DNA of 64,000 bases, taken from NCBI RefSeq assembly GCF_002095435.2, contig NZ_MJEJ02000036.1:62001-126000 (forward strand). Direction: 5' to 3'. Both the position numbers and the translations under genes were made by a program. Below are positions 26,184-62,476 of this stretch, piece by piece; position 1 is the first letter of the stretch, and every line of letters begins with the position of its first letter. Below the pieces are notes generated by a model. The model was not told the DNA's origin. It searched no databases and was given only the letters and a program-made list of their open reading frames with translations. This DNA is from Williamsia sp. 1138 (lineage in GTDB: Bacteria; Actinomycetota; Actinomycetes; Mycobacteriales; Mycobacteriaceae).

Positions 26184-26774
26184 CTAACCCCGGGGTCGCC
26201 ACCACTGCCCTTCGTCTCTGAACAACTCCGGCTGGGTGGATGCGGTGTCGCGGGTGATTCCCGGTATCACCTGGTAGGTGATGGACTCGCGTTCACTGAC
26301 CAGTGCCAACGGCCACCACAGCGCGCGCACGTAGCTCTCGGCTCTGTCCACTCCGTCCCAGTCGTAGAGGCCTCGATAGAGGCCGTTGCCGTCGTGGGCA
26401 AGCCAGAGTTTGGACACGAATCCCGGGAATCCGACGAACAATGGCGTATTGAACAGGCTTTCACGCCGGAATACGGCGTGGGCAATCTCGTTCTGGCCGA
26501 CGCCACGGAGCCGAAACCCGACAGCCAACGTCACCGGTTCGGCGTGCGAGACGGCATCGACAACAGTCTCGCGGTAGACCCGCGCCGAGGATCCGTCAGC
26601 GAAATCGATCCGCCGCTCCAAATTGGTCGTGGGTTGACGAATCCTGCGGTGGGCCAGCAACCGCGAAGTGTTGTAGATCGAGCCGCACAGTTCGCGGGCT
26701 GCAACGATCCCGCGCTGGCGATCAATGGACCGCGCGCCGTTCACGGAGGCGCAAGCCGGATGCCGTGGTCTCAT
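26184..26774 (-). CDS. Conserved hypothetical protein, third gene of the stomatin operon
   Basis: A 196-residue protein with no signal or membrane segment. The C-terminal half is conserved in style with a mycobacterial family of unknown function (FNTPLFVGFPGFVSKLWLAH, GLYRGLYDWDG, SYVRALWWPLALVSERESI). A ligand-binding or dimeric alpha/beta-barrel role is guesswork. I chose ATG at 26774, which overlaps the stop of the preceding small gene (ATGA); GTG at 26783 is the alternative. Confidence 0.7.
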   Translation of the reverse strand: MRPRHPACASVNGARSIDRQRGIVAARELCGSIYNTSRLLAHRRIRQPTTNLERRIDFADGSSARVYRETVVDAVSHAEPVTLAVGFRLRGVGQNEIAHAVFRRESLFNTPLFVGFPGFVSKLWLAHDGNGLYRGLYDWDGVDRAESYVRALWWPLALVSERESITYQVIPGITRDTASTQPELFRDEGQWWRPRG

Positions 26775-26941
26775 TTCCGCCACACGGTGGTCATCTCTCC
26801 GACGACGGCGATCACCTGGAGACCTGCGAGGCCACCGAGGAAGACTGCTGCCCAGATCGACGCTCCCGTGAGCACACAGACGGTGAACAGACAGAGGACC
26901 GCGAGAAGTGCAGCTTGATCAGCTGTTTCGTGACCGAGCAT
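26771..26941 (-). CDS. Small membrane protein (56 aa)
   Basis: The reading frame starts MLGHETADQAALLAVLCLFT and ends TTVWRK. Nearly all of it is hydrophobic (two short helices). It lies 11 bases after the stomatin-like gene and overlaps the next gene by four bases, so its coding nature rests on operon logic. A role as partner of the stomatin-like protein, similar in size to other SPFH-linked small proteins, is inference. Confidence 0.6.
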   Translation of the reverse strand: MLGHETADQAALLAVLCLFTVCVLTGASIWAAVFLGGLAGLQVIAVVGEMTTVWRK

Positions 26942-26952
26942 TCTTCTGCTCC

Positions 26953-27858
26953 CTACCGCGTCGTAGCTGGTGCGGCTATTGGGACAGCAGGCAGTGGCCA
27001 GTCGAGACCGCCCCTGACGGCACCGTCGATCGGTGCGACTCTATCGGTCTGCTGCACAGCCGCTTCAGAGTCACCAACTCGCTTGGCAGCGCTGTTCTCG
27101 CGAACGAAAAGGTTCTCGATGTCAGTGATCGCGCTCATCAACTGCGCGGGGAACACCACAGTGGTGTTCTTCTCGACACCGATCTCGACGAGAGTCTGCA
27201 AGTTGCGTAACTGGAGGGCGATCGGATGAGCGCTCATCGTGTCCGCAGCTTCACCCAGAGACGCAGCAGCCATCGACTCGCCTTCTGCGGCGATGATCTT
27301 CGCACGCTTCTCTCGCTCGGCCTCGGCTTGTCTGGCCATCGCGCGCTTCATGCTCTCAGGCAGCTGGATGTCTTTGAGCTCTACCAAGGTGACTTCCACT
27401 CCCCACTCCAGCGTCGTCATGTCGAGGATGCGCCGGATGTCCGAGTTGATGGTGTCTGTGTCGGCGAGCGCCTGATCGAGTGAGTGCTGTCCGACCACCT
27501 TGCGCAACGTGGTCTGCGCGATTTGATCGATCGCGGCGCGCACATTCTCGATGGCGACCACCGACTTCACCGCATCCACCACGCGGAAGTAAGCCACCGC
27601 CGAGATGTCGACACTGACGTTGTCCCGAGTGATGATGCCCTGCGATTGGATGGGCATCGTCACCACCCGCATCGACACCCGCGCCATGCGATCGACGATC
27701 GGGATCAAGAACCTCAACCCAGGCTCGCGGACGCCAATCACCCGGCCGAACCTCAGCAAGACACCGCGCTCGTACTGCACGACGACCCGGATCGACAGGG
27801 CGAGCAGCAGCAGGGCGACAACGACGACAACGATTCCGATCACGATCCAGCCGATCAT
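26953..27858 (-). CDS. Stomatin/slipin-type SPFH-domain protein
   Basis: A 301-residue membrane scaffold protein. One N-terminal hydrophobic helix ([20 protein letters not shown]) anchors it. An SPFH domain ([20 protein letters not shown] to [23 protein letters not shown], quoted in parts) follows, then a coiled-coil stretch with [15 protein letters not shown]. Bacterial slipins organise membrane microdomains and often pair with NfeD proteases; no nfeD is present here, and a tiny membrane protein takes that place. AGGGGAG lies just before the ATG. A DosR-box-like site lies 85 bases upstream. Confidence 0.9.
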
Positions 27859-27942
27859 GTGGCTCCCCTTTCACTCACGCCCAGCCGACCATGTCATCGC
27901 GGGCTCCACAGTCACCTTCGCGCTGATTCCCGGCATCCGTGA

Positions 27943-27956
27943 GGGCCAAATGTCAC
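27943..27956. promoter_or_regulatory. Candidate DosR box upstream of the slipin operon
   Basis: GGGCCAAATGTCAC matches GGGACTWWAGTCCC at 10 of 14 positions by hand alignment. It lies in the divergent gap between the slipin operon and the small gene at 28077. Confidence 0.45.
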
Positions 27957-28026
27957 TCCGATGTATCCATCGGTCGTCTCATGAGAACAGCGGTGCTCGT
28001 ACGCGATTACCCAATCAGCCGGAAGT

Positions 28027-28040
28027 GGGCCCTTTGACCC
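28027..28040. promoter_or_regulatory. Candidate DosR box upstream of the gene at 28077
   Basis: GGGCCCTTTGACCC matches the DosR palindrome at 10 of 14 positions and keeps the GGG-8-CCC spacing. Its centre is ~43 bases before the ATG, close to typical DosR activating positions if the transcript is leaderless or nearly so. Confidence 0.55.
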
Positions 28041-28076
28041 TTTTCCTGTCAACGCTCGAGGCCGACACTGCTCGTT

Positions 28077-28448
28077 ATGAGCAAATCCAGCCGCGTAGTC
28101 TCAGCTGGCGTGCCAAGTCATCTCGACATGGCCGTCCAGGCTGTGCCGATGCTCGACCTCGCCCTCCACGACAGACCGCTCCCGGACATCAGCGGCTCAC
28201 TACGCGTCGCCGCCACGTGGTTGTGGACTCGTTTCGACCCCCTGGCCAACGCTGAACTCACCGCCACACTCGCCCACCGAGGCCTCGCACCGGCCGATAC
28301 ATCCGATCTCAAACAAGTCGATGTCGCATTGCGTTCGGCCAGCACATTGATGTTCGACGAACTGCTCGCCTGGTGTGTCGCCGGCGCGTGTCAGCGGTCG
28401 GCTTCAGCGCATCCGCCTGCCCGTGACGACTACACGCTCAGTGGCTGA
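28077..28448 (+). CDS. Hypothetical protein, probably DosR-controlled
   Basis: A 123-residue protein that I do not recognise. The middle reads like a folded helical domain (LDLALHDRPLPDISGSLRV, AATWLWTRFDPLANAELTAT, ALRSASTLMFDELLAWCV). No ribosome site precedes the ATG, so it may be leaderless; internal starts are possible. The strong DosR-like site directly upstream is the best clue to its role. Its 3' end is convergent with the hemerythrin-ATPase gene. Confidence 0.6.
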   Translation: MSKSSRVVSAGVPSHLDMAVQAVPMLDLALHDRPLPDISGSLRVAATWLWTRFDPLANAELTATLAHRGLAPADTSDLKQVDVALRSASTLMFDELLAWCVAGACQRSASAHPPARDDYTLSG

Positions 28449-28488
28449 AGACGACCGACCACAGCCAGCCCCGCGCCGGGATCGCCGA

Positions 28489-30816
28489 TCAGGCTTCGTC
28501 TGCCATGGTGAAGTAATTCTCTTCCTCCTGTATGAAGTGCAGCCGCAACAGTTCGTGGAGCCCGTACAAAGTGGCGATCAGGTCACTGCGTTGGTCCGGA
28601 CTGATCTCGCCGTGCTCATCGGCACGTAGGCGATGAGTGTGGAGTCGGCGGCCCAAACGGTCGATTTCAGCGTGCATTCGGCTCATCGTCGCCGTCGCCT
28701 CCGAGCTCCCCAGTGGCCTCGCCAATGCGGGATACAGATCCTCGTCCTCAGCGTGCTCGTGCGGGAGTACCACCTGCGACACAAACGAATCCGCTGCTTG
28801 CAGCGCAGGATACGCCGACCGTACGTCCCCATTGGACAGCTCTTGCGCCGCGGTGGTGAGCAGCGACAGCCGGCCCCTCATCTCGTCGTGCTCTTTCGAG
28901 AACCGGTGGATAAGTTCGTCGGTCTGACTGCTGATCCGCTGGGATCGTTTTCTCCCACCGCTGAGCGCCCGCAGCGCGTTCAGAATCACGATCACGTCGA
29001 TAGCTTCTTGAACCAGAGCTCCGGGCGCGGGCGCCAGCAAGCCGAATGCCGCCACAACCATGGCTACCAGCGACAAACCCATTCCCACTCCGGCGCTTTG
29101 CACAGCTATCCGCCGAGAGCGACGGGCGGTTTCCATGGCATCAGCAAGCCTGTCGATGCGGTCTGTCGTCAGGACGATGTCTGCGGCCTGCGAACTGGCC
29201 GCCGAGCCTCTCGCGCCCATCGCCACACCCACGGTGGCAGTGGCCAGTGCCGGCGCGTCGTTGACTCCGTCGCCCACCATGATGGTGACTGCCTGGCGTC
29301 GCTCGGCGCGCACCCGCGCGACCTTGTCGGCGGGGGTCTGCTGGGCATACACCTGATCGAGTCCCAGAACAGCTCCGATCTCCTGCGCGGGCCGAGCGCG
29401 GTCTCCTGTCAGCATGATGATCCGAGACAGTCCGGCACCGCGCAGTCGTCTCAATGTCGACGACGCGTCGCGACGAACCTCATCGATCAGTGTTATGGCC
29501 GCAGTCAGGATTCCCTCGACTTCGATCCAGGCAATCACGGACCCGTCAAGTTCGGACTTGCGCAGCGCGGCCTGCGCCCACGTCGGTCCGTCCTCAGGCA
29601 GAACACGCGAACCCACCGAAACCCGGCAGCCGTCCACGGTGGCGGTCACCCCCGTGCCGGCCTGTTCGACGACGTCGGTCGGCAGCGAAAGGGGCATACC
29701 CCGCGCTTTCGCTTCCCGGACTATGGCCTCGGCCAGAACGTGCGCCGAGACCTGATCGGCGGAGGCCGCCAAACGGAGAATGTTCGCGGGGTCCTGGCCG
29801 GGCGCCACATCGATGGCAAGGCCGCTTGGTCGACCCGTCGTCAATGTCCCGGTCTTGTCCAGGACAAGGGTCGTGGCGTGTCCCAGATTCTCCAGTGCGG
29901 CACCATCTCTGACGACCACACCGAAGCGTAACGATCGCGACAGGCCGGAGACGATGGCGATGGGCGCGGCCAACAGCAACGGACACGGCGTCGCAACCAC
30001 CAGAACCGCGACCGCTCGCGTCAGGGAGCCGTCGACGACCCACGCCACGGACGCGACCACCAGCGTCAGCGGCAGGAACCAGGCAGCAAGTCGATCAGCC
30101 AATCGGACGACCGGCGCCCGTTCGGACGACGCATCGTCGGCTAGACGGACAATACCCGCGTAGGTGCTGTCCGAAGCTGTTCGCAGCGCTGTCATCTCGA
30201 ATGCGTTGCCTGCATTGACGACACCCGAACGTAGGTCATCGCCCGACGTTACGGTGACCGCAACAGATTCACCGGTGAGCATGGACTCGTCGAGGACTGC
30301 AACGGAGGAGTTCATCCGGCCGTCGACCGGCACTGTCTCACCGCACCCTACCGAGATGACGTCCCCGACCTCGACTTCGTCGAGGTCCACCACTTCGAGC
30401 GTCGTGCCTACCCGGCGCCGCGCAGTACGTGGGGCGTGCGCGACGAGAGCGCTCAGGTCGCGAGACGCTCGTCGCGACGCGGTTGCGTCGAGCACTCGGC
30501 CGGTGGCAAGCATGACGGCGATCAGAATTCCGGCGAGGAACTCCCCGACGACGATGGTTCCGACCAAGGAGAGCACCGCGATCACATCGACGCCGACCCG
30601 TCCGTGACGCAGACCTTCCACTACCCACCACACCGCAGGTAGCAAAGCCACGAGGGTTCCGGCAATCCAGAGCGCGTCGGCGATGTCGGTTGACTCCGAA
30701 AGCCACGCGATACCGCCCGCTGTCAACGCGGCGGCCGTGACCACGAAGAGCGCCGTTTCCACGGAAATCCCCACGTTCATTCCTGGCCGCGGCTTGTGCA
30801 CGTCATCCGCACGCAC
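28489..30816 (-). CDS. P-type metal/cation ATPase fused to a C-terminal hemerythrin (HHE) domain
   Basis: A 775-residue protein. Residues ~1-600 form a P1B-like pump: membrane pairs, TGES loop (MLTGESVAV), TPCPLLLAAPIA in the transport helix, DKTGTLT phosphorylation site and [10 protein letters not shown] hinge. There is no N-terminal metal-binding domain, and the usual His-Pro dipeptide of P1B pumps reads His-Val (SAHVLAEAI). Residues ~615-775 form a hemerythrin-like four-helix domain with HRFSKEHDEM, LPHEHAEDEDLYP, MHAEIDRLG and LRLHFIQEEENYF, the usual di-iron ligand pattern. The GTG start has GGAGG seven bases upstream. The substrate metal is not predictable from sequence. Confidence 0.88.
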   Translation of the reverse strand: MRADDVHKPRPGMNVGISVETALFVVTAAALTAGGIAWLSESTDIADALWIAGTLVALLPAVWWVVEGLRHGRVGVDVIAVLSLVGTIVVGEFLAGILIAVMLATGRVLDATASRRASRDLSALVAHAPRTARRRVGTTLEVVDLDEVEVGDVISVGCGETVPVDGRMNSSVAVLDESMLTGESVAVTVTSGDDLRSGVVNAGNAFEMTALRTASDSTYAGIVRLADDASSERAPVVRLADRLAAWFLPLTLVVASVAWVVDGSLTRAVAVLVVATPCPLLLAAPIAIVSGLSRSLRFGVVVRDGAALENLGHATTLVLDKTGTLTTGRPSGLAIDVAPGQDPANILRLAASADQVSAHVLAEAIVREAKARGMPLSLPTDVVEQAGTGVTATVDGCRVSVGSRVLPEDGPTWAQAALRKSELDGSVIAWIEVEGILTAAITLIDEVRRDASSTLRRLRGAGLSRIIMLTGDRARPAQEIGAVLGLDQVYAQQTPADKVARVRAERRQAVTIMVGDGVNDAPALATATVGVAMGARGSAASSQAADIVLTTDRIDRLADAMETARRSRRIAVQSAGVGMGLSLVAMVVAAFGLLAPAPGALVQEAIDVIVILNALRALSGGRKRSQRISSQTDELIHRFSKEHDEMRGRLSLLTTAAQELSNGDVRSAYPALQAADSFVSQVVLPHEHAEDEDLYPALARPLGSSEATATMSRMHAEIDRLGRRLHTHRLRADEHGEISPDQRSDLIATLYGLHELLRLHFIQEEENYFTMADEA

Positions 30817-30873
30817 GTCTTTTCCTCCTCGATGCCCACCGGAAAGTCTCCGCTACGCCGATTCGCCGCCCTA

Positions 30874-30887
30874 GGGACGAAAGAAGT
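30874..30887. promoter_or_regulatory. Candidate DosR box between the hemerythrin-ATPase and flavodoxin genes
   Basis: GGGACGAAAGAAGT matches the DosR palindrome at 9 of 14 positions, with one half-site complete. It sits inside a nine-base inverted repeat (CTACGCCGA at 30853-30861, TCGGCGTAG at 30887-30895). The site could serve both divergent genes. Confidence 0.4.
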
Positions 30888-30974
30888 CGGCGTAGAGGCC
30901 TATGTCCTCTCCTCGCGCGCCGATGCGGGCAGTTCACTGAGGAGACAGTTCACGTCGCCGAATGGAGCAGTGCA

Positions 30975-31511
30975 GTGATCAAGGTACTTGTGGCAACGGC
31001 CAGCAGGCACGGGTCGACCCGGGAGATCGGCGAACAACTCGGCACTGCGCTATCGGCTGGTCTACTCGCGCGGAAAGTTGACGCCGAGGTCGAAGTTCTC
31101 GACGCCGACCAGATCGAGAGTCTCGCCGACGTCGACGCACTGATCTTGGGAAGCGCGGTGTACATGGGGCGCTGGCTCAAGAGCGCCCGGAGTCTCGTCG
31201 ATCGTGAAACCAAGAGTCTGGAAGCAATCCCGGTCTGGTTGTTCTCCAGCGGTCCAGTAGACGACACCGGCAAGAGTGATGGCGGCAAGGCCACACCTGA
31301 GGTGAAAATCGCCAGTGCCGCGTGGGCGCAGGATCATCACACGTTCGGCGGCAAACTCGACCGAGCCGAGCTGAGTTGGGGTGAGCGTCTGGTTGCGTCC
31401 GCCGTTCACGCGACTGACGGTGACCATCGCTCCTCATCCGAGATCGGTGAATGGGCCGACGAGATCTGCGGATCATTGGCCGAAATGCCCGTTGTCCGAA
31501 ACGACTGGTGA
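30975..31511 (+). CDS. Flavodoxin-domain protein (HemG-like)
   Basis: A 178-residue protein with a flavodoxin fold: the FMN phosphate loop [17 protein letters not shown], the second loop [16 protein letters not shown] and the third near [10 protein letters not shown]. The family includes menaquinone-dependent protoporphyrinogen dehydrogenase and other electron carriers. The GTG start has GGAG seven bases upstream. It begins a tightly packed five-gene unit with an alcohol dehydrogenase, a winged-helix protein, a P-type ATPase and an acetyltransferase. Confidence 0.88.
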
Positions 31512-31530
31512 GTTCCGCAGAGGTTTTGGC

Positions 31531-32562
31531 ATGCGAGCATGGCGAGTATCAGAGCCAGGACCGATCTTGGGCGAACCAATCGAGCTGGTGACCGAAAAGA
31601 GGCCGGTGCCACAGCGCGGCGAGATGCTCCTCGCGGTCGAGGCCTGCGGGGTGTGCCGTACAGATCTACACGTCGTCGAGGGCGACCTGCCAGTCCACCG
31701 ACCATCGGTGGTTCCCGGCCATGAAGTCGTAGGACGTGTGCTGTACATCGCCGAGGGAACCTCCACTGCTTTCCGCGTCGGCGATCTGGTCGGCGTCCCC
31801 TGGCTTCGATCCACCTGCGGCACTTGCAGCTACTGCCGCACCGGAGCCGAAAACCTTTGCTTGCGTTCCCGGTACACCGGCTGGGATCATGGCGGCGGGT
31901 ACGCCGACTACGTTGTCGCCGAAGCCGCTTACGCCCTGGAACTGCCGACCGGTTATTCCGCAACGGAGCTCGCTCCGCTGCTGTGCGCCGGGATCATCGG
32001 CTACCGCGCACTGAAGCGAGCAGAGCTCCCACCTCGCGGCCGTCTGGGCATCTACGGATTCGGCGGTAGTGCCCATCTGGTGGCGCAGGTCGCGATGCAC
32101 CAAGGAGCAATTGTGCACGTGATGACGCGTGATCAACGAGCGCGGGACCTGGCACTCGAACTCGGTGTCGCATCAGCTCGAGACACGTACGACCAACCTC
32201 CCGAGCCTCTCGACTCGGCGATTGTCTTCGCCCCGATCGGCGACATCGTCCCTACCGCGCTGGAAGCGCTCGACCGTGGCGGGACCCTCTCACTGGCGGG
32301 CATCCACATGACCGACATCCCGCCCCTGAACTATCAACGACACCTGTTCCACGAGAAACAGATACGCAGTGTCGAGTCCAACACCCGCGCAGACGCCCGT
32401 CAGTTTCTGCGCTTCGCCCAAGATCACCGACTCCACGTAGAAACCACTGAATACTCACTCGAGCAAGCGCTCACTGCCCTTCGAGACCTCAAGGAAGGGC
32501 TGTTCGCGGGGGCTGCGGTATTGGTCCCCCTCGAGAAGGGACTCCCCTATGCGACTTCTTGA
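31531..32562 (+). CDS. Zinc-dependent alcohol dehydrogenase (AdhA-like)
   Basis: A 343-residue medium-chain dehydrogenase. The catalytic zinc ligands lie in CGVCRTDLH and GHEVVG; the structural zinc site is [15 protein letters not shown]. The dinucleotide motif [16 protein letters not shown] is slightly degenerate (GxGGxx). It should interconvert alcohols and aldehydes with NAD(H). AGAGG lies seven bases before the ATG at 31531. It follows the flavodoxin gene by 19 bases and overlaps the next gene by 14 bases. Compare Rv1862 AdhA. Confidence 0.88.
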
Positions 32563-32989
32563 CCGGGTGGCGATCCGCTTCCACATTCTGGGCCGGGCCG
32601 TCAGCGATATGATCTCCGAGCAGCAGATGAGCCGAGAGCTGTTCCGTCGCGATTACCGTGTCGGGCCCGGTAATCTGCGCCAGATCCTGGACGATCTGGT
32701 GGCCGAAACCCTCCTGACGCAAGACCAGCGTCTGATCGACGGCATGATGCAGAACGTCTACCGGGCAACGCCGGCAGGCAGGATGGAATTGGGGCGCGAT
32801 CGGCGACTACTGAGCAAGCTCACCCACGAAGTCTTCGGTGATGCGGTCCCCCCGGCGCCATCGGGGCTTGTCGTCGATGCTCCAGGACATTCCGTCCTCA
32901 GTTCGATGCTTGCTGTGCAAGTCCCCGCGAGCCAACGGGATTGCCGCAAGGCTCCGGAACAGGGGCGCTCTCTTGCCCACCGCCGGTGA
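32549..32989 (+). CDS. Winged-helix (PadR-like) protein
   Basis: A 146-residue protein. Residues ~15-95 look like a winged helix: a helix pair ([20 protein letters not shown]), a recognition-like [15 protein letters not shown] and a wing with [17 protein letters not shown], close to PadR-type repressors. The C-terminal ~45 residues appear disordered. DNA binding is inferred, not shown. It is embedded in the operon, overlapping the dehydrogenase by 14 bases and the ATPase by about 17. Confidence 0.7.
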
Positions 32990-52973: not shown

Positions 52974-53059
52974 TAGAGCCGCCGCCTGCAAGACGCTGCA
53001 CTGGTGGGCGACTGCCGCTCTCCGAAACCCCCGAGACCCGTTCGCTCAGGAGAACCACA

Positions 53060-54289: not shown

Positions 54290-54313
54290 TCAGACACCTC
54301 CGAGGAGATCGCC

Positions 54314-55843
54314 ATGCGTACCAGCCGAGTGGTCATGCTCATCACCGGATGCCTATCGGCGTTGTGTGGGCTCGCGCTTCTCACCGCTGCAGGATTTGTG
54401 TTGTGGGGCTACTATATTCAGCGCGACGGCGGTGAAATCACGCTCCCACAAGAGAAGTTTCAGACCTCGTCTGCCGCCTTGTTGTCCGATGACATTCACA
54501 TCTTCGACTCCGCGAGCAGGCCCGAGTTGCTCGGGGTCGACGATCTGGGGCGTATCACCTTGCGGGCCACCCCCGCCGATCCTGGCAGTGCGGTCTTTGT
54601 CGGCGTCGGCCCCACCGAACAGGTCGAGCAATATCTGGATGATGTTGCGCACACCGTGATCGGCGACCTCAATTTCGACCCCTTCCGCGTTCGGTATGAG
54701 CAGGTGCCCGGTTCCACGGCGGCCCGCGCGCCGACATCAGAGACCTTCTGGGCCGCTCAGAGCGCCGGACCTGACCGGCAACAATTGTCCTGGGACCTGC
54801 AAGACGGCTCCTGGACCATGGTTGTCATGAACGCCGATGGCAGTCCCGGAGTCTCGGTAGCTCTTCAAGCGGGAGTTCGATTCGACTTCCTCGGGCCGCT
54901 GGCGGCAGTGCTGCTCGTGGGCGCAGGCGTCTTGTTGCTCGTCGGTGCGCCGCTGATCGTCTTTGGCGCTATCGGGTTGGGCCGCCAGCTGCAGCCGAGG
55001 TCCGTAGGGCCCACACCCGGTGGCCCGCCGGTGGACACGACCCACATCGGACGAGCCTCTCCGATCACGCTCACCGGGAGACTCGATCAGCCCCTCTCGC
55101 GTTGGCTGTGGCTCGTGAAGTGGTTGCTGGCAATTCCTCATTACATCGTTTTGATGTTCCTCGGCATCGCCTTTGTGATCACCACTGTGGTGGCCGGATT
55201 CGCCATTCTCTTCACCGGCCGATATCCGCGCGGCATCTTCGAGTTCAACGTTGGCGTACTTCGCTGGGTTTGGCGCGTGCAGTTCTACACCTACTCTGCG
55301 CTGGCGACCGACCGATACCCACCCTTCACACTCCGGCGCACGGACTATCCGGCCGACTTGACCGTTGACTATCCGGAAACGCTCTCGCGCGGTCTGGTTC
55401 TCGTCAAATGGTGGTTGCTCGCGATTCCTCACTACGTGATCCTTGCCGTCCTCGCCGGAGGGTGGTACGCAGGATTTCGCATTGCCGGAGACAACGGCGA
55501 TGTGGGGGCCGCCGGGCAGCCGTGGTTCTTCAGCTCGGTACTCGGCTTGGTCGTAGCCATCGTCGCGATCTGCCTGCTGTTCACGGCACGCTATCCCCAA
55601 GGATTATTCGACTTCGTGATGGGTATCAACCGCTGGGCTTATCGGGTGATCGCGTACGCCGCCCTGATGCGCGATGACTACCCTCCGATGCGTCTGGACC
55701 AGGGGGCCGACGAGCCGGACTCGGCACCATTGCAAGCCCCTGAGGTCGATTCACCATCAAAGCTGCAACCGGCCGGGTCAGCCATGGCCAGTACCGACAG
55801 GGCAGTCCAGCCGCCCCATCCACGGGATTGGTTCAACGGCTGA
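54314..55843 (+). CDS. DUF4389 membrane protein
   Basis: A 509-residue membrane protein. A first helix (~8-32) is followed by an extracytoplasmic domain of ~165 residues and a second helix (~195-220). Two DUF4389 repeats then follow, each with WLWLVKWLLAIPHYIVL or VLVKWWLLAIPHYVIL, FTGRYPRGIFEFNVGVLRW or FTARYPQGLFDFVMGINRW, and YPPFTL or YPPMRL. The function of DUF4389 is unknown. Its stop overlaps the next ATG (TGATG). Position suggests a role with the adjoining ABC exporter or redox genes. Confidence 0.85.
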   Translation: MRTSRVVMLITGCLSALCGLALLTAAGFVLWGYYIQRDGGEITLPQEKFQTSSAALLSDDIHIFDSASRPELLGVDDLGRITLRATPADPGSAVFVGVGPTEQVEQYLDDVAHTVIGDLNFDPFRVRYEQVPGSTAARAPTSETFWAAQSAGPDRQQLSWDLQDGSWTMVVMNADGSPGVSVALQAGVRFDFLGPLAAVLLVGAGVLLLVGAPLIVFGAIGLGRQLQPRSVGPTPGGPPVDTTHIGRASPITLTGRLDQPLSRWLWLVKWLLAIPHYIVLMFLGIAFVITTVVAGFAILFTGRYPRGIFEFNVGVLRWVWRVQFYTYSALATDRYPPFTLRRTDYPADLTVDYPETLSRGLVLVKWWLLAIPHYVILAVLAGGWYAGFRIAGDNGDVGAAGQPWFFSSVLGLVVAIVAICLLFTARYPQGLFDFVMGINRWAYRVIAYAALMRDDYPPMRLDQGADEPDSAPLQAPEVDSPSKLQPAGSAMASTDRAVQPPHPRDWFNG

Positions 55844-56385
55844 TGCGCGTCGTCATCGGATACGCCAGCGCACACGGGTCCACGGCTTCGATTGCAGAGC
55901 GGATCGCCGAACGATTGCGGGACCTGGGCCACGCGGTCGACCTGGAGTCGTTTGACGAACTGGCATCCGTCGACAGCTACGACTGCCTGATCCTGGGGAG
56001 TGCGGTACACAACGGCCAGTGGCTCCCCGCGGCTGAGGAGGCAGTCGACAACCTTCTGATCCACGATGCGCTGCGCGATAAGTATGTGTGGACTTTCTCG
56101 GTCTCCTCGGTGGGAGAAACCAGCTCGCTTCTCTCACCGCGGCTGGCACAACTGCTCCGGCGCCACATACCTGAGCCCATCGCTTTCGCACTGCTGCACA
56201 ACCTCTCCGACATCCAGGGCCATCGGTCCTTCGCTGGTGCGATTGCTCCAGGTCAGTGGTCTGGTCTGGGCAATATCGTCTTCCGGCTGATGGGTGGCCG
56301 ATACGGCAACGCCACCGACCATGCGGACATCGACCGCTGGGCGCTACGCATCGCCAACGCACTGGCAGTCCACAGATCGGCATGA
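55843..56385 (+). CDS. Flavodoxin-domain protein (second copy)
   Basis: A 180-residue protein with FMN-binding loops GYASAHGSTASIAERIAERL and LILGSAVHNGQW, related to but clearly different from the protein at 30975. Later segments (IAFALLHNLSDIQGHRSFAG) fit HemG/flavodoxin-like oxidoreductases. It should shuttle electrons or act on a small redox substrate. Translation is coupled to both neighbours (TGATG before, ATGA after). Confidence 0.87.
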   Translation: MRVVIGYASAHGSTASIAERIAERLRDLGHAVDLESFDELASVDSYDCLILGSAVHNGQWLPAAEEAVDNLLIHDALRDKYVWTFSVSSVGETSSLLSPRLAQLLRRHIPEPIAFALLHNLSDIQGHRSFAGAIAPGQWSGLGNIVFRLMGGRYGNATDHADIDRWALRIANALAVHRSA

Positions 56386-57299
56386 GCATGGACATCCCCG
56401 TTGTCATCACCGACCTCGCCAAGAACTTCGGCACCACCCGCGCACTCGACGGGCTGTCCATGTCCGTGACCGCCGGATCCGTGCACGGTTTTCTGGGGCC
56501 CAACGGATCCGGCAAATCCACGACGCTGCGGATTCTTCTCGGACTCGCCAAGGCAGATGCCGGCTCGGTGGAGGTATTCGGGTACGACCCCTGGCGTCAC
56601 GCCGACATCGTCAACCCCAGGTTGGCCTACGTGCCGGGAGACGTCAGCCTCTGGCCGTCGTTGACCGGCGGTGAGGTACTCACGATGTTGGCGTCCTCGC
56701 ACGGCAGGCCGAACACGCCCCGCCGTACCGAACTCATCGACCGGTTCGAACTCGATACGACCAAGAAGACCAAGTCGTACTCGAAGGGAAACCGGCAGAA
56801 GGTTGCTCTCATCGCCGCACTGGAGTCAGACGCTGAACTCCTGATCCTCGACGAACCGACGACCGGTCTGGATCCTCTGATGGAGGCCGCTTTTCGCGAG
56901 TGCATCAGCGAGCGCCGTCGCGTCGGGGTCACGGTCTTGTTGTCCAGTCACATGTTGGCAGAGGTCGAAGCGCTGTGCGACAGCGTCACCATCATTCGCG
57001 GTGGACGAAGTGTTGAATCGGGTACCTTGCAACACTTCCGAAAACTGACGCGACTCCAGGTGCGGGCGGAAGCAGTCGGCTCCGGAAACACTCTCCTAGC
57101 GCATCGGGGTGTGTATGACGTCACCGTGAGCGCTGACCACCTCACGTGCACCGTAGATCGCGACGCCCTGAACGATCTGCTGACAACGCTCGGAACCATT
57201 GGTGTCACCGACCTGAGCGTTACACCCATCACCCTCGAGGATCTTTTCCTACGCCAGTATCTGCAACCGCCGGACGCGACTGCGGCTGCCGCGCCATGA
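56382..57299 (+). CDS. ABC exporter ATP-binding protein
   Basis: A 305-residue ATPase of the multidrug/antibiotic-export type. Walker A is GPNGSGKSTTLRIL, the signature is YSKGNRQKVALIAAL (SKGN in place of SGGQ, as in many exporters), and Walker B is LLILDEPTTGLDP, followed by the H-loop SSHMLAEVEALCD. The C-terminal ~75 residues form the accessory domain typical of these ATPases. It overlaps the flavodoxin gene and the permease gene by four bases each. Confidence 0.9.
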   Translation: MSMDIPVVITDLAKNFGTTRALDGLSMSVTAGSVHGFLGPNGSGKSTTLRILLGLAKADAGSVEVFGYDPWRHADIVNPRLAYVPGDVSLWPSLTGGEVLTMLASSHGRPNTPRRTELIDRFELDTTKKTKSYSKGNRQKVALIAALESDAELLILDEPTTGLDPLMEAAFRECISERRRVGVTVLLSSHMLAEVEALCDSVTIIRGGRSVESGTLQHFRKLTRLQVRAEAVGSGNTLLAHRGVYDVTVSADHLTCTVDRDALNDLLTTLGTIGVTDLSVTPITLEDLFLRQYLQPPDATAAAAP

Positions 57300-58882
57300 G
57301 GACCGCGCACGCGTGCGCAACCCTGTTGCGACTGTCATTTCGCGAAGACCGCGTCCTGGCGGCAACTTGGGTCGTGTTGCTGACGACAATCACCTGGGTC
57401 TCGGCTGACGCGACCAAGGATTTGTACGGTTCCGGTCAGATGCGCGCAGCTGCCGTGTCGGCACTGAACGCGACACCCGCGGTTACCGCCCTGTATGGGC
57501 GGATGTCTCCGACGGTCTCGCTCGGCGAGATGGCCATCCTCAAACCCTTCATGATGGGCACGATCGCCGTAGGGGTGATCACAGCAGTCATCGCCATCCG
57601 CCACACCCGCGCCGGCGAGGAGTCCGGACGAACCGACCTGTTGATCGCAGCGGGTGCAGCGCGGAATGCACTCGTGATCAACGCATATGTCAGCGCTTCG
57701 GCGGTCAGCGTCGCATTCGGGGCGGCCGCGAGCATCTCGCTGCTCGCTGTCGGCCTCCCCACCGCCGGGGCTCTGGCCGTAGGGGCCGCCTGGACGATGG
57801 TTGGCCTGTTGTTCGCGAGCACCGGCGTTCTGTGCGCACAGGTCTTCGGGACCGTTCGGGCGGCCCGGAGTGCCATCTTCGTACTCATCGGATGTGCATA
57901 TCTGATCCGCGCACTGGCTGACAGCAGCAGCTTCCTGAGCTGGCTCCGTTGGCTGTCCCCGGTGGGCTGGGCCCAGCAGGTCCGGCCCTTCGCCGAAGAA
58001 CAATGGTGGCCGTTGACACTTCTCGGGGCGGCAACGGTCGTGGTAGCCCTCTGCGGAGTCCCACTCGCACGGCGGCGCGATGTGGGCGCCGCGTCCTGGT
58101 CGAGACCGGACGAATCGACAGATGAACTGATCAGGACCCGATCAGGTTTGGTCTGGCGACTAATCCGAACAGGTTTCCTCACGTGGGCCATCGGGATCGC
58201 GGCACTCAGCGCCGTGGTCGGGAACGTCGCGGCGAACGCCGACTCCTTCCTCGGAAACCAGGCGATGGCCGACTACCTCAGCCGACTCGGTGGCTCCGGC
58301 GCAGTCGTGGACAGCCTGTACTCCGCAGAGCTGGGATACATCGGTTTGCTCGCAGCAGCTTTCGCAATCTACGTCATTCTGCAGATCTCCCATGAGGAAT
58401 CTGCGCGCCACCTTGACCTACTGCTGACCGCAACCCCATCGCGGCGCCGATGGGTGACCGCACATCTGTTGATCGCGGCCGGCGGCAGTGTTGTCCTCAT
58501 GGGTACCGCGGGGACAGTGCTGGCGACCTTCGACATCGTCAACACCGGCGACACCGGTCATGCCGGGCACATCATCGCAGCGTCTATGGGACAGGTGCCG
58601 GCGATCTGGCTCATGGCTGCGGTCGCTGTGCTGGTGTATGGACTGACCCGGCACGCCCAAGCCGTCGTCTGGGCATTGCTGGTCGCAGTCGTCACCACGG
58701 GGATCCTCGGTCCTCTCATCGACACAAATTTCGCGATCGAGAATCTCTCGCCGTTCAGCCACACCCCGACCCTGGCCGACCTGGATGCTGTGCCCGCAAC
58801 GGTGTTCATGCTCGGCGTCGCCGCAGCCGCAACGTTCGCTGGAATCCGAGCCTTCGACCACCGCGACGTTGTCCCTGGCTGA
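57296..58882 (+). CDS. ABC exporter permease (double-length, antibiotic-export type)
   Basis: A 528-residue membrane protein with two sets of about six helices (residues ~20-260 and ~285-525), resembling fused permeases of polyketide/tetronasin-type exporters. The interdomain region (SWSRPDESTDELIRTRSGLV) is cytoplasmic. The transported substrate is unknown. It is the last of four coupled genes (DUF4389, flavodoxin, ATPase, permease); a 131-base gap follows. Confidence 0.88.
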   Translation: MRTAHACATLLRLSFREDRVLAATWVVLLTTITWVSADATKDLYGSGQMRAAAVSALNATPAVTALYGRMSPTVSLGEMAILKPFMMGTIAVGVITAVIAIRHTRAGEESGRTDLLIAAGAARNALVINAYVSASAVSVAFGAAASISLLAVGLPTAGALAVGAAWTMVGLLFASTGVLCAQVFGTVRAARSAIFVLIGCAYLIRALADSSSFLSWLRWLSPVGWAQQVRPFAEEQWWPLTLLGAATVVVALCGVPLARRRDVGAASWSRPDESTDELIRTRSGLVWRLIRTGFLTWAIGIAALSAVVGNVAANADSFLGNQAMADYLSRLGGSGAVVDSLYSAELGYIGLLAAAFAIYVILQISHEESARHLDLLLTATPSRRRWVTAHLLIAAGGSVVLMGTAGTVLATFDIVNTGDTGHAGHIIAASMGQVPAIWLMAAVAVLVYGLTRHAQAVVWALLVAVVTTGILGPLIDTNFAIENLSPFSHTPTLADLDAVPATVFMLGVAAAATFAGIRAFDHRDVVPG

Positions 58883-59013
58883 TGTGGGAAGCGAACCGTC
58901 CCATACGGCACAAGGTCCCATGCAGCGACGTCGAAATGCCCTGCTGATCCAGCCCACGACCGAATTGAATGAGAACTGACACGAGACAACAAGATCAACC
59001 GGCAGGAGTAGCC

Positions 59014-59493
59014 ATGACCACAGCTTCGGCAACCCAGCGCCGACAATCGAGTAACCCCCTGAACACGGTAGCCGTCATAGTATCGGCACTCACAGCGCTC
59101 CTGGCCGTCGCCGGTGCCGTCGGGATTGCCGGCGGGGGCATTGACTTCGGCGACGACATCGAAGGACGGCTTCCCTGGGACAGCCGCCTGCTGGCCGGAT
59201 CGGCATTGGTCATCATCGTCGCCATTCCCACGGCGCTGGCGGCGGCAGCGTTACGTGCCCGGTCCCCACGTGGTCCCGCGATATTGATCGCGGCCGGAAT
59301 GATGCTCTTCGGATGGATCATCCTGCAAGTGCTCATCATTCAAGCTTTCAACCCCCTACAAGTGATCTTCGCCGTGACGGGCATCGCGCTGGCCATCACG
59401 GGGCTTGTGTTGGCGTCCAGGCGCGAACGTGCAGCCTCCCGGTCAAATCACACCACAACACGGTACCCGACAAAAGGATCGAACAAACGATGA
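59014..59493 (+). CDS. Small four-helix membrane protein (paralogue A)
   Basis: A 159-residue protein with about four hydrophobic helices and a conserved G-D-D-I-E-G-R-L-P-W-D-S segment between the first two. The same architecture and a related segment (GEEIERRMPWES) occur in the protein at 61029, so the two are paralogues within one island. No known family was recognised. GGAG lies five bases before the ATG. The stop overlaps the next gene's ATG (ATGA). Confidence 0.78.
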   Translation: MTTASATQRRQSSNPLNTVAVIVSALTALLAVAGAVGIAGGGIDFGDDIEGRLPWDSRLLAGSALVIIVAIPTALAAAALRARSPRGPAILIAAGMMLFGWIILQVLIIQAFNPLQVIFAVTGIALAITGLVLASRRERAASRSNHTTTRYPTKGSNKR

Positions 59494-60518
59494 ACACCAT
59501 GAAAGCCGCGCTGGTTCAAAGCTTCACGGAACCGCTCGTCATCGGCGACGTTCCGCTACCCTCCCCCGGCCCGTTCCAAGCGCTCGTACGGGTTCGGTAT
59601 TCGGGGGTTTGCCACACCGATCTGCACGCTGCCCACGGCGATTGGCCGGTCAGACCGACCCTCCCTTTCGTACCCGGCCACGAGGGCGTGGGAACCGTCA
59701 TCGAGATCGGTGATCAGGTCACCCGCCTCAAGGTCGGAGACACCGTCGGCAATGCCTGGCTCTGGAGCGCGTGCGGCGACTGTGAATACTGCCAAACCAG
59801 CTGGGAGACCCTGTGTCCTGACCAGGTCAACGGAGGTTATTCGGTCGATGGCTCGTTCGGAACCCACATGCTGGTCGACTCGCGATATGCCCCGATCATC
59901 CCCGCCGGTGTCGACGTGGCAGCCGTCGGGCCCATTCTGTGCGCCGGTGTCACCGTCTACAAGGGACTGAAGATGACCGATACGCAACCCGGCGATTGGC
60001 TCCTCATCTCGGGCATTGGTGGACTTGGCCACATAGCCGTGGAGTATGCGCGGGCGATGGGTCGACGCGTTGTCGCCATCGACATCGACGATGCGAAACT
60101 CGACCTCGCCGTTCAGCACGGCGCAGAGGTGACCGTGAATGCCGCGTCGGTCGAGGATCCGGCCGCCGAGATCATCGAGCGTACGGGCGGAGGAGTCCAC
60201 GGCGCCCTGGTCACGGCTGTCAACGCGCACGCGTTCCCGCAGGCGGTAGGAAGCCTGCGGCGCGGCGGCACCGTCTCACTGGTCGGCCTACCGCCCGAGA
60301 AGTTCCCGCTCGACATTTTCACCACCGTGCTGTTCGGGCTCACAGTGCGTGGTTCCATCGTCGGCACGCGCAGAGACATGACCGAAGCGCTCGACTTCTT
60401 TGCTCGCGGACTGATTCACCCCACGTACAAGCTGCGGCATTTGGACGAGATCAACGACATCTTCACCGACATGTCCGCTGGTGATATCAGCGGGCGAATA
60501 GTGCTGGACCTCAACTAG
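59490..60518 (+). CDS. Zinc-dependent alcohol dehydrogenase (AdhP-like)
   Basis: A 342-residue medium-chain dehydrogenase. It has GVCHTDLHAAHGDW and GHEGVGTV for the catalytic zinc, CGDCEYCQTSWETLC for the structural zinc, and ISGIGGLGHIAVEYARAMG for NAD. It matches the AdhP/AdhA type that makes or uses ethanol. ATG at 59490 overlaps the previous stop; ATG at 59499 is an alternative. A second alcohol dehydrogenase lies at 31531, less typical in its cofactor loop. Confidence 0.92.
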   Translation: MNTMKAALVQSFTEPLVIGDVPLPSPGPFQALVRVRYSGVCHTDLHAAHGDWPVRPTLPFVPGHEGVGTVIEIGDQVTRLKVGDTVGNAWLWSACGDCEYCQTSWETLCPDQVNGGYSVDGSFGTHMLVDSRYAPIIPAGVDVAAVGPILCAGVTVYKGLKMTDTQPGDWLLISGIGGLGHIAVEYARAMGRRVVAIDIDDAKLDLAVQHGAEVTVNAASVEDPAAEIIERTGGGVHGALVTAVNAHAFPQAVGSLRRGGTVSLVGLPPEKFPLDIFTTVLFGLTVRGSIVGTRRDMTEALDFFARGLIHPTYKLRHLDEINDIFTDMSAGDISGRIVLDLN

Positions 60519-60567
60519 TTCAACAATCCATCCACCGGCGCGCCGATGGCCAAAAGGGAGGACGGCG

Positions 60568-61002
60568 ATGTCCACGTACGACACTTCAGCAGGAGCAGAC
60601 CTCGTCCAGAAGCTGACCGAGGCCGACTGCTGGGAACTACTGCGGCAGGAGCAACTCGGACGACTTGTTGTCACAGTCGGCGACCGTATCGACATCTTCC
60701 CGATCAACTACCTCATCGATGCGCATCGGGTGCTGTTCCGCACCGCCGAGGGCACAAAACTCGTCGAATTGACCATCGACGACCGGGTGGTCTTCGAAGT
60801 CGACCACGTCGACGACGAATCCGGATGGAGCGTGGTCATACACGGCACTGCCCGTACCCTGAGGACCTCCGCAGAGATCGCGGTCGCCGACGCCCTCGAG
60901 CTACGTTCTTGGGTGCCGACAACGAAGTACAACACCGTCGAGATCCAACCCGGCGAAGTGACCGGCCGGTACGTGCGCTTCGGCGAAGAACCTGAGCGTT
61001 GA
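60568..61002 (+). CDS. Pyridoxamine-5'-phosphate-oxidase-like flavin-binding protein (Rv3129-like)
   Basis: A 144-residue split-barrel protein. Typical segments are ECWELLRQEQLGRLV-like (here DCWELLRQEQLGRLVVT), IDIFPINYLIDAHRVLFRTA and VVFEVDHVDDESGWSVVIHG. The family binds FMN, F420 or heme; Rv3129 is a DosR-regulon member. The gene follows the dehydrogenase by 49 bases with GGGAGG upstream. The next membrane-protein gene begins 26 bases later. Confidence 0.85.
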   Translation: MSTYDTSAGADLVQKLTEADCWELLRQEQLGRLVVTVGDRIDIFPINYLIDAHRVLFRTAEGTKLVELTIDDRVVFEVDHVDDESGWSVVIHGTARTLRTSAEIAVADALELRSWVPTTKYNTVEIQPGEVTGRYVRFGEEPER

Positions 61003-61028
61003 CCGAGCAAGGCGCTGAGGAACACGGA

Positions 61029-61496
61029 ATGATTGTCAATCGCGACTGCACCAGCACAAAATCCTCGCGCCCTGAATCTTCGCTAAGGAGTCACTCCGAG
61101 GCCGCGGCAGCCGTGATGACACTTGGTTCGAGCGCGGTCGCCTTTGCCGCGGCGGTGGCCGTCATCAGCGGTGGGACATACGTCGGCGAAGAGATCGAAC
61201 GTCGAATGCCGTGGGAGAGTCCAGTCGTTCTCGGCGTGTTTCTGACGATCATTGTCGGCCTACCGATGGCCCGGGCAACCTACGATCTTCTTTTCCGCAC
61301 CGATCAGGCGGCCGGCACCACCCTGATGGCGGGAGCACTGCTCCTCGGATGGGTCGCCATACAGATGACCCACATCCACGCAGTCCACCCTCTGCTGGTG
61401 GTACCAGCGGCTATCGGGGTCACCCTGGTTGTCGCCGGTCTGTACTTCGCACATCAGGTTTCGGACGACAAAGAACCAGCGGTCGGTGACCCATAG
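61029..61496 (+). CDS. Small four-helix membrane protein (paralogue B)
   Basis: A 155-residue relative of the protein at 59014: polar N-terminus, four hydrophobic helices, and the shared YVGEEIERRMPWESPVVLG segment. GAGG with eight bases spacing supports ATG at 61029; an upstream TTG at 60999, overlapping the PNPOx stop, is the alternative. Function is unknown; the sandwich of dehydrogenase and flavoprotein between the two copies suggests a common membrane role. Confidence 0.75.
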   Translation: MIVNRDCTSTKSSRPESSLRSHSEAAAAVMTLGSSAVAFAAAVAVISGGTYVGEEIERRMPWESPVVLGVFLTIIVGLPMARATYDLLFRTDQAAGTTLMAGALLLGWVAIQMTHIHAVHPLLVVPAAIGVTLVVAGLYFAHQVSDDKEPAVGDP

Positions 61497-61588
61497 TCAG
61501 TCGGCGTCAAAAGTGTGCGAGCACAAACAGAGGCGCAATCCTTCTCTCGGGCTTCAGAAGTCATTCCTATACAACGTGAGGATCGAAG

Positions 61589-62476
61589 ATGAATGATGAT
61601 CGTGACCAGCTCCCTGTGGTCGTCGGAGTCGATGGCTCGGAGGCGGCCCTGGGCGCGTGCAGATGGGCGGCGACGTTGGCTGCGGCTCGCGTTGCGCCGC
61701 TGCACCTTGTCCACGCAATTCCGCCCTTCCCTTGGTTCTCTCCGACCGCATTGGCGTTGAGTTCCGAGAACTTGGATAAAGAGTTGCACCAAGTCGGGAA
61801 CGCACAACTCGACGAAGCTGAAGCAGTGGTGCGGGAAGAGTGTCTGTCGCTACCGGTGAGCCGATTACTGCTCGAAGGTCCGGTTCCTGACGTGCTCGCC
61901 GACCGGTCCGAACACGCCCAGGCAGTCGTGCTGGGTGCGCATTGGAGTGGACCTGCAGGGGACATGCTGCTGGGCCGACAAACAATTCGGGTGATCAACC
62001 GCGCCAGATGTCCCGTGGTGGCGTGGCGGAGGGAGCCGTTCGCCGCAGCAGACGGTGCCCGGCCCATCGTGGTGGGTGTCGATGAGTCCGACTACGCCAC
62101 CAGGGCCGCGCACCACGCGTTCTCCTACGCCGACACGCTGCACGTACCGCTGGTCATCGCCCACTTCTGGAGTATGTACGCTACGGTCGGGCTTGGCTAC
62201 TCTGCGGCGTTCGTCGACTGGGACGCGATTCAGCGCGAGAAGCAACAATGGATCGACGCCCTGATCGCGCCGCTGGCAGAGGAGTATCCCGCCGTGACCG
62301 TGCACAGGGTGTGCGCCGACTCGACACCGGCAAGAGGTCTGGTTGGACTGTCGAAAACCGCACAGATGGTGGTGGTCGGGTCCCGCGGTCGCGGGCAATT
62401 CGTGGGTGCTGTTCTGGGTTCTGTCAGCCAGAACCTCGTACACCACGCGGACTGCTCTGTTCTCGTTGTGCCCTAG
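61589..62476 (+). CDS. Double-domain universal stress protein
   Basis: A 295-residue protein with two Usp domains. The second keeps GSRGRGQFVGAVLGSVS; the first loop is degenerate (GAHWSGPAGDMLLGR). The C-terminal domain is closely related to that of the USP at 41375. The stop codon abuts the stop of the convergent DsbA-like gene with no spacing. I found no convincing DosR site in its 92-base upstream gap. Confidence 0.9.
   Translation: MNDDRDQLPVVVGVDGSEAALGACRWAATLAAARVAPLHLVHAIPPFPWFSPTALALSSENLDKELHQVGNAQLDEAEAVVREECLSLPVSRLLLEGPVPDVLADRSEHAQAVVLGAHWSGPAGDMLLGRQTIRVINRARCPVVAWRREPFAAADGARPIVVGVDESDYATRAAHHAFSYADTLHVPLVIAHFWSMYATVGLGYSAAFVDWDAIQREKQQWIDALIAPLAEEYPAVTVHRVCADSTPARGLVGLSKTAQMVVVGSRGRGQFVGAVLGSVSQNLVHHADCSVLVVP

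Follow-up and report, generated by a model that had tools for sequence, protein, structure and literature searches.

A DosR-type dormancy island with its own DevR and DevS regulators in Williamsia sp. 1138, probably acquired by horizontal transfer

Mycobacteria are commonly regarded as the home of the DosR regulon, a resident program for dormancy, and its genes are scattered over several clusters in Mycobacterium tuberculosis. A 64,000-nt stretch of DNA (the window) on contig C32 of the Williamsia sp. 1138 genome (G000; 6.08 Mb in 54 contigs) contains a single block of ~40 genes, the island, that includes its own DevR response regulator and DevS sensor kinase. Contig C32 terminates 8.3 kb beyond the window end, and positions in that part are given as extended coordinates (window numbering continued past 64000). 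Gene identities were assigned by open reading frame (ORF) calling, Pfam and NCBIfam profile searches, and comparison with PDB sequences; the HspX, PNPOx, Rv2004c, and CtpF labels are family-level assignments. The main features are as follows.

15898..15973, plus strand: tRNA-Leu(CAA), a hot spot for integration among genomes of the genus, some of which carry additional copies of its 3'-terminal 43 bp
21732..64000, continuing to extended 67022 (3.0 kb past the window), no strand: insertion relative to genome G119 (G119 alignment)
24416..24799, plus strand: small membrane protein with PLDc_N/SHOCT domains (Pfam)
26953..27858, minus strand: slipin, SPFH/Band 7 (Pfam)
28489..30780, minus strand: heavy-metal P-type ATPase with a C-terminal hemerythrin domain, hemerythrin-ATPase (Pfam E1-E2 ATPase and hemerythrin; NCBIfam)
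30975..31511, plus strand: flavodoxin 1 (Pfam)
31531..32562, plus strand: zinc alcohol dehydrogenase 1, ADH1 (Pfam)
32973..35741, plus strand: cation P-type ATPase, CtpF-like (Pfam)
36299..37186, minus strand: universal stress protein 1, USP1 (Pfam)
37386..38276, plus strand: USP2 (Pfam)
38368..39018, plus strand: DevR/DosR response regulator, other in-frame ATG at 38341 (ORF, Pfam, PDB match)
39155..39742, plus strand: Rv1733c-family membrane protein (NCBIfam, E = 4e-37, above cut-off)
39782..40768, plus strand: Acg-family flavin mononucleotide (FMN) oxidoreductase 1, Acg1 (Pfam; NCBIfam above cut-off)
40878..41315, plus strand: HspX-like HSP20 chaperone (Pfam)
41375..42289, minus strand: USP3 (Pfam)
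42365..44080, minus strand: DevS/DosT-type sensor kinase, GAF-GAF-HisKA_3-HATPase (Pfam, PDB match)
44305..45177, plus strand: USP4 (Pfam)
45229..46158, minus strand: possible toroid-fold protein (sub-threshold squalene-cyclase match)
46165..47628, minus strand: AAA_33 P-loop protein, Rv2004c-like (Pfam)
47625..48437, minus strand: short-chain dehydrogenase, SDR (Pfam)
48552..49562, plus strand: Acg-family FMN oxidoreductase 2, Acg2 (Pfam; NCBIfam above cut-off)
49620..50552, plus strand: PfkB-family kinase (Pfam)
50522..52861, minus strand: phosphoenolpyruvate (PEP) synthase (Pfam; NCBIfam above cut-off)
53060..54289, plus strand: USP5, long form (Pfam)
54314..55843, plus strand: DUF4389 membrane protein (Pfam)
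55843..56385, plus strand: flavodoxin 2 (Pfam)
56382..58882, plus strand: ABC transporter ATPase and a 528-aa partner without Pfam match (Pfam)
59490..60518, plus strand: zinc alcohol dehydrogenase 2, ADH2, no box nearby (Pfam)
60568..61002, plus strand: PNPOx-fold protein, Pyridox_ox_2 (Pfam)
61589..62476, plus strand: USP6 (Pfam)
62477..63905, minus strand: Rv2466c-like, DUF302, and YgaP-like genes (Pfam)

The last three genes share their insertion with MMPL-type and CsoR-type genes located just past the window. An initial annotation of the window had described a compact DosR island with its own regulators, and the classical and non-classical genes it named were all recovered, in order, by ORFs and by Pfam, NCBIfam, and PDB matches. 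Some of its labels need qualification: the gene at 45229 is present but the toroid-fold label rests on a squalene-cyclase match of E = 0.002, and the Rv2004c and CtpF genes are an AAA_33 protein and a cation P-type ATPase whose equivalence to the M. tuberculosis genes holds by family only. All six USPs of the island are two-domain proteins, and together they supply 12 of the 26 USP domains of the whole genome.

Both regulators are encoded inside the island and have their M. tuberculosis counterparts among their best PDB matches. DevR matches M. tuberculosis DevR best (3c3w, E = 2e-98), with a 27-residue run through the recognition region of the DNA-binding domain that is identical to 3c3w, and its top match outside DevR is VraR (E = 6e-38). 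Translation probably starts at 38368 rather than 38341, since in the related genome G076 a stop codon sits just upstream of the former position; this stop lies ahead of the likely start and the G076 gene reads intact. The GAF-A domain of DevS finds the GAF-A domains of DosT and DevS as best matches (E = 1e-60 to 3e-55), and the protein keeps an HHPPM motif (His at 142) and the HisKA_3 LHD motif (His at 389), which we take to provide the heme ligand and the phospho-acceptor, respectively. DevS is therefore a heme-GAF type sensor by sequence, for which heme binding is predicted. Kinases of the DevS type are present in 212 out of 301 genomes of the family (E ≤ 1e-30), and the nearest named relatives found belong to Rhodococcus, Nocardia, and Mycobacterium. 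A second DevS-DevR pair is located on contig C43 of the same genome (28965-31227; DevS 50% and DevR 75-79% identical), near a relative of the SHOCT gene (83%) that is preceded by weak DosR-type boxes (9.0 and 9.1 bits), and a DevRS pair in genome G059 is arranged similarly, with a SHOCT relative (85%) beside it. Cross-talk between the island pair and the C43 pair is likely.

The block was compared across a genus sample of nine genomes, G000 counted in. G119 matches the window through position 21731 and again from extended coordinate 67023, and its two flanks are joined with 25 bp between them. Because both flanks are joined in G119, ~45.3 kb are extra in G000. G076 holds 42.5 kb of the block (24281 to 66816) in almost collinear order on a single contig. 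Full-length matches to the DNA from USP5 to DUF4389 were found in two out of nine genomes (G000 and G076), and the remaining seven are without the block; one of these, G106, has diverged pieces (DevS 68%, DevR 86-87%) on its contig C8. DevR at E ≤ 1e-40 was found in four out of nine genomes, including the diverged partial version in G106 and the separate small pair in G059. This synteny comparison supports the island proposed by the initial annotation and extends it: the gene cluster is real at the ~36 kb described, but the unit is larger, with a left end at 24281 or 21732 and a right end near extended coordinate 66.8-67.0 kb.

Several observations were made at the left edge. Between the flank and the part shared with G076, positions 21923-23570 contain an N-terminally incomplete cytochrome P450 gene and a short-chain dehydrogenase gene split over two frames; both apparently decayed, and neither has a nucleotide match in the island contig of G076. 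A tandem GGAGCCACC-type short repeat is located at 25980-26030. Adjoining the insertion site, and conserved in G119, is an EAL-DICT protein (19597-20877), a possible cyclic di-GMP phosphodiesterase with a sensory domain.

Divergence between G000 and G076 within the island is discordant with that of the core genome. At four-fold sites the median was 0.056 for 30 island genes and 0.154 for 14 core genes in a neighboring 15-kb stretch left of the tRNA (p = 1e-6); nine central mosaic genes had been dropped from the 30-gene set after inspection, and with all 39 scored island genes the median was 0.069 (p = 0.002). Genes g45-g61 range from 0.003 to 0.074 and the 14 core genes from 0.06 to 0.43, with intermediate values just outside the island (right flank 0.12-0.18; left-flank genes g15 0.10 and g19 0.17). 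The polA gene alone (0.279) was rejected as a core baseline, as it exaggerated the contrast. Values in the island center are high for DevS (0.65), USP4 (0.60), USP1 (0.51), and USP2 (0.43), at or beyond the upper limit of the core set, with at most very few of its 14 genes as divergent. Interspersed with these are DevR, Acg1, and the Rv1733c-family gene, whose values are low (0.06-0.10). Such sharp jumps between neighboring genes suggest that the sensor and several USPs were replaced by recombination.

Candidate DevR-binding sites were scored with a palindromic matrix trained on 108 intergenic stretches from 12 mycobacterial devS loci, with the window excluded; up to 120 random starts were run and the top-scoring matrix was used (consensus taGgGaCntanGtCcCta). 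The following boxes were found.

24288..24305, no strand: one DosR-type box, 10.2 bits, 119 bp upstream of the SHOCT/PLDc_N gene
27941..28042, no strand: two DosR-type boxes, 11.7 and 11.2 bits, slipin/g27 gap
30893..30910, no strand: one DosR-type box, 11.8 bits, hemerythrin-ATPase/flavodoxin 1 gap
37277..37316, no strand: two DosR-type boxes, 10.7 and 10.9 bits, USP1/USP2 gap
39063..39080, no strand: one DosR-type box, 12.4 bits, upstream of the Rv1733c-family gene
40800..40817, no strand: one DosR-type box, 13.8 bits, 69 bp upstream of hspX
42338..42355, no strand: one DosR-type box, 13.5 bits, upstream of USP3
44204..44221, no strand: one weak DosR-type box, 8.5 bits, DevS/USP4 gap
52920..52975, no strand: two DosR-type boxes, 10.7 and 13.1 bits, PEP synthase/USP5 gap

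Sites of at least 10 bits occur at 10 of 2308 intergenic positions of the island versus 1 of 33,985 coding positions, and at none of the 21,691 positions left of 21.7 kb in the window. A background of 340 kb from the same genome contains 2 such sites in 27,475 intergenic and 14 in 312,236 coding positions (island versus genome intergenic, Fisher p = 4e-10). The region 21.7-26.2 kb, with its one intergenic site (24288), was kept outside these counts. The ten boxes precede slipin/g27, hemerythrin-ATPase/flavodoxin 1, USP1/USP2, the Rv1733c-family gene, hspX, USP3, and PEP synthase/USP5, so that boxes are enriched upstream of member genes though several island genes are boxless; because divergent neighbors share some boxes, not every gene is separately supported. 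DevR control of the island genes is predicted from these boxes. Two other searches were set aside: a relaxed consensus gave 486 matches in the whole genome versus 1106 to its reversed control and was too unspecific, and a de novo palindrome search of the window alone at width 16 was marginal (log-likelihood 34.2 versus 27.2-32.6 in five shuffles).

The association of boxes with island gene families extends to other loci. Boxes are located ahead of 15 out of 44 heads of non-classical and 53 out of 78 heads of classical transcription units, versus 8 out of 309 unmatched heads of control stretches; among unmatched heads inside DevS loci, 51 out of 406 have a box. These counts leave out the 12 training loci and the near-duplicate BH4 plasmid, the pools exclude g54 (1/1 boxed) and DUF302 (0/2), and DevR (16/32) and DevS (4/29) were counted apart.

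The content of the island has also changed at its right end. In G076 this end carries an amino-acid permease, an arginine deiminase (two ORFs), an ornithine carbamoyltransferase, and an amino-acid kinase that is taken as carbamate kinase from the operon context, and these genes are preceded by three boxes (8.6, 11.9, and 10.8 bits). In G000 the start of the permease gene is fused to the end of the kinase gene at ~66.81 kb (extended ~66811), and only the 8.6-bit box still reaches 8 bits in this region. Judged from the two sequences, the junction is a deletion scar that marks the loss of an arginine deiminase operon kept in G076. Among 56 DevS stretches analyzed, a second DevS locus (G056) was the only one with relatives of this operon: three of them (47-57%) are located near DevS, and a 12.1-bit box lies 98 bp before the deiminase gene.

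Relatives of the regulators are found on plasmids as well. DevS relatives (E ≤ 1e-40) were identified on 37 plasmid records, 18 of them from Rhodococcus. For DevR (E ≤ 1e-60) there were 25 such records, of which Rhodococcus accounts for 16. Eight of the 37 DevS regions were examined. On the Rhodococcus qingshengii plasmid RQCS_2, DevRS is surrounded by relatives of slipin (74%), the CtpF-like ATPase (64%), ADH1 (62%), and the hemerythrin-ATPase (57%), together with flavodoxins, an AAA protein, Acg-like proteins, and USPs, and a region with the same matches is present on a plasmid of Rhodococcus sp. BH4. The mobilizable plasmid pRWAY01 carries DUF4389 followed by a flavodoxin in the same order as the island, and the conjugative plasmid pRaL13f carries DUF4389 and an ABC transporter; an Arthrobacter plasmid contains DevRS without the island-type neighbors in its annotation. 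RQCS_2 has boxes before slipin (14.2 bits) and the hemerythrin-ATPase and pRWAY01 has one before DUF4389; overall, boxes on plasmids recur before slipin, DUF4389, hemerythrin-ATPase, and flavodoxin genes. Among the regions examined, the Rhodococcus plasmid pDK2 (L245) has two DevR copies and, near DevRS, an encapsulin-DyP peroxidase pair and an Hsp20/ClpB/thioredoxin cluster (23921-25776, 31473-41629). On a Rhodococcus pseudokoreensis plasmid (L246), DevS is unannotated and aligns in three pieces (19995-21637) beside an annotated DevR, probably as a degraded gene, with a nitrate reductase operon and a truncated hemoglobin nearby.

Gene-family association was measured in 48 genome-contig and 8 plasmid DevS stretches versus 28 controls, which represent a single genus plus two plasmids. 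The 48 contigs may be of chromosomal or plasmid origin and include one from Saccharopolyspora (L157), outside the Mycobacteriales. Acg1, Acg2, USP1, USP4, and DevR are clearly associated with DevS loci and ADH1, CtpF, and Rv2004c modestly so (p = 0.02-0.03). The association is not significant in this comparison for slipin (7/56 versus 0/28, p = 0.051), nor for the hemerythrin-ATPase, the flavodoxins, DUF4389, and others. Compact clusters that include DevR and DevS are present in Nocardia paucivorans (L159, 8 island-gene matches) and Rhodococcus sp. IEGM 1381 (L145, 11 matches), each within ~21.7 kb. Together with the osdRK region of Streptomyces coelicolor, which is also described as compact (PMC5069765), these clusters speak against the idea that consolidation is in itself unusual.

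Taken together, the 42-45 kb block is probably a horizontally acquired, self-regulated DosR island that entered as a unit and later exchanged parts. Of the two origins offered by the initial annotation, a transferable module with added functions is supported by the empty site in G119, the presence in two out of nine genomes, the low divergence of 30 out of 39 genes, the boxed non-classical genes, and the gene sets on plasmids; an older arrangement is, for this copy, not supported. A number of observations weigh against acquisition as a discrete, DevR-controlled unit. The left boundary depends on a last G119 alignment piece of only 78% identity, the core baseline is drawn from a single 15-kb neighborhood, and G+C content does not deviate markedly (0.61-0.64 from 24 kb on, 0.60-0.66 to the left; 2-kb windows). 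No box of at least 8.5 bits is located before DevR, SDR/Acg2, or PfkB or in 58.6-64 kb, a coding site of 10.3 bits at 23464 falls outside the counted regions, the best site in the window for the strict 20-bp DosR consensus matches 15 of 20 positions (none matches 16 or more), and the de novo palindrome search at width 18 was marginal (36.5 versus 30.4-35.6 in shuffles). Controls from the same plasmids separate weakly by boxes (p = 0.025 and 0.07), with a 14.0-bit intergenic site in one of them, and the DevS neighborhoods of G129, G201, G293, and G117 hold little beyond DevR, DevS, and a USP. Finally, none of the other two sisters in the comparison is as close to G000 as G076, and ancestral acquisition followed by exchange is therefore possible as well as direct transfer; a single acquisition in the common ancestor with subsequent slower divergence or gene conversion is possible, as is loss of the block from other species of the genus.

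There is also an explanation without transfer, in which an ancestral compact DosR cluster was inherited vertically by G000 and G076 and lost elsewhere and the low divergence reflects constraint or gene conversion. The close relationship of G076 (core four-fold median 0.154 versus 0.205 for G119 and 0.304 for G059), the diverged pieces in G106, and the compact clusters of other genera are consistent with it, but the explanation appears unlikely: four-fold sites are mostly free of protein constraint, and their divergence is 0.003-0.074 in g45-g61 versus 0.06-0.43 in the core genes, the G106 DevRS pieces are located away from the tRNA site, and seven absences would require several losses, one of them leaving the joined site in G119. 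It is also rather improbable that DevR governs the classical genes only and that the non-classical genes are bystanders in a hot spot for stress genes. The right end (ADH2, PNPOx, USP6) is indeed boxless in the window and there is no clear box excess across loci for SDR (1/11 boxed) or ADH1 (1/6), but boxes of 11-12 bits precede slipin and lie between hemerythrin-ATPase and flavodoxin 1, and the plasmid boxes and the pooled non-classical heads described above argue for wider control.

The tRNA-Leu(CAA) gene raises the question of a classical integrative and conjugative element or a prophage with dormancy genes as cargo. Extra copies of its last 43 bp are present in G076 (two, C40:59754 and C87:5564), G106 (three, on C20, C22, and C26), and G040 (one, C5:78689). 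In G076 a copy without the full tRNA is located 3.7 kb away from the island, and in G106 an integrase is located immediately beside tRNA-Leu(CAA). The tRNA-Leu site of G106 (C14, 7034-11002) also contains relatives of the island right end (Rv2466c-like, DUF302, MMPL-, and CsoR-type genes) at 76% nucleotide identity; a nucleotide search of 16.7 kb of this site matched no dormancy gene of the island. Yet such an element seems distinctly unlikely. The tRNA is separated from the island by 5.8 kb if the left end is placed at 21732 and by 8.3 kb if it is placed at 24281, and the four tyrosine integrase matches of the genome are all on other contigs (serine integrases were not searched). As the 43-bp repeat has a single copy in the G000 genome, no flanking repeat is present; an integrase and attachment repeats at both ends were accordingly not found, a result that covers tyrosine integrases and a contig that ends 8.3 kb past the window, and contigs end close by in both genomes. 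Pfam matches for 45 ORFs from the window and the extended part of the contig included no relaxase, although no search aimed at relaxases was made.

For the acquired island favored here, a fall in oxygen or a rise in nitric oxide would lead DevS to phosphorylate DevR, and phosphorylated DevR would bind degenerate GGGAC..GTCCC palindromes within the island and switch on HspX, the USPs, the flavodoxin and flavin redox proteins, the CtpF-like and hemerythrin-ATPase metal pumps, slipin, and PEP synthase. The induced genes would then support survival of the cell without respiration. The block would have entered as a unit, at a chromosomal site that lies downstream of tRNA-Leu(CAA) and is hypervariable, after which recombination would have swapped parts of it, the sensor allele included, and cargo such as the arginine deiminase operon would have been gained and lost.

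A broader proposal, put forward tentatively and with slightly less than even confidence, is that DosRS and its boxed genes form a portable cassette for survival at low oxygen, moving as a unit among the Mycobacteriales on plasmids and chromosomal islands. The cassette would swap sensor alleles by recombination and gain or lose anaerobic-energy cargo, for example an arginine deiminase operon with boxes of its own. If so, the mycobacterial DosR regulon would be one resident version of a mobile system. That survival kits of this type can be acquired en bloc is suggested by the sister species and the plasmids compared here. Since the island is a clean insertion that brings its own regulators and much of the gene set and has boxed relatives on plasmids, the origin and assembly of the regulon become testable in environmental actinobacteria, with slipin, hemerythrin-ATPase, the flavodoxins, DUF4389, and arginine deiminase as candidate members with defined sites.

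The island shares DevR, the DevS/DosT GAF-A domain, HSP20, Acg, Rv1733c-family, USP, and PfkB proteins, and DosR-type boxes with the M. tuberculosis regulon and differs from it in being one contiguous acquired block with boxed slipin, hemerythrin-ATPase, and flavodoxin genes, degenerate boxes, and a second DevRS pair elsewhere. The transmissible locus of stress tolerance of enterobacteria is likewise a mobile stress-survival block; it serves protein quality control under heat and chlorine and has no oxygen-sensing two-component system, so that the likeness is in concept only. The plasmid modules of RQCS_2, pRWAY01, pRaL13f, and pDK2 share, depending on the plasmid, DevRS, slipin, CtpF-like, hemerythrin-ATPase, ADH, flavodoxins, DUF4389 or Acg/HSP20, and boxes with the island; the Rhodococcus modules differ in being plasmid-borne, with DevS 46-54% identical and their own cargo of trehalose phosphatase, wax-ester synthases, and encapsulin-DyP.

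The stress genes that surround osdRK in S. coelicolor are under the control of OsdR, which acts via a DevR-like element, and this region shares USPs, an ADH, pyruvate phosphate dikinase, and a nitroreductase around the regulator pair; nitrate reductase and links to development are its own, and no evidence of transfer or an empty site was noticed in the available text (PMC5069765). Predicted DosR boxes that follow a relaxed consensus are described outside the mycobacteria in Rhodococcus equi, with no island claim noticed in the part of the article at hand (PMC2947987), and work in M. smegmatis, as excerpted, distinguishes weak and strict forms of the consensus (PMC6448022). According to the accessible portion of a further study, M. 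abscessus has only six orthologs in common with the M. tuberculosis DosR regulon (PMC10034137). The horizontally gained, hypoxia-responsive molybdenum-cofactor genes reported for M. tuberculosis are alike in their gain but apparently represent a cofactor pathway and not a self-regulated DevRS module (PMC5720804). Because species regulons differ and a compact osdRK region has been published, the compactness and variable membership of DosR clusters are already known. The open-licence literature searched contained no DosR module described as a transferred block or as plasmid-borne, which is not proof of absence; relative to that literature, what is apparently new here is a DosR module that forms a discrete insertion with an empty site in a sister species, has mosaic sensor alleles, and has plasmid relatives with the same boxed extras.

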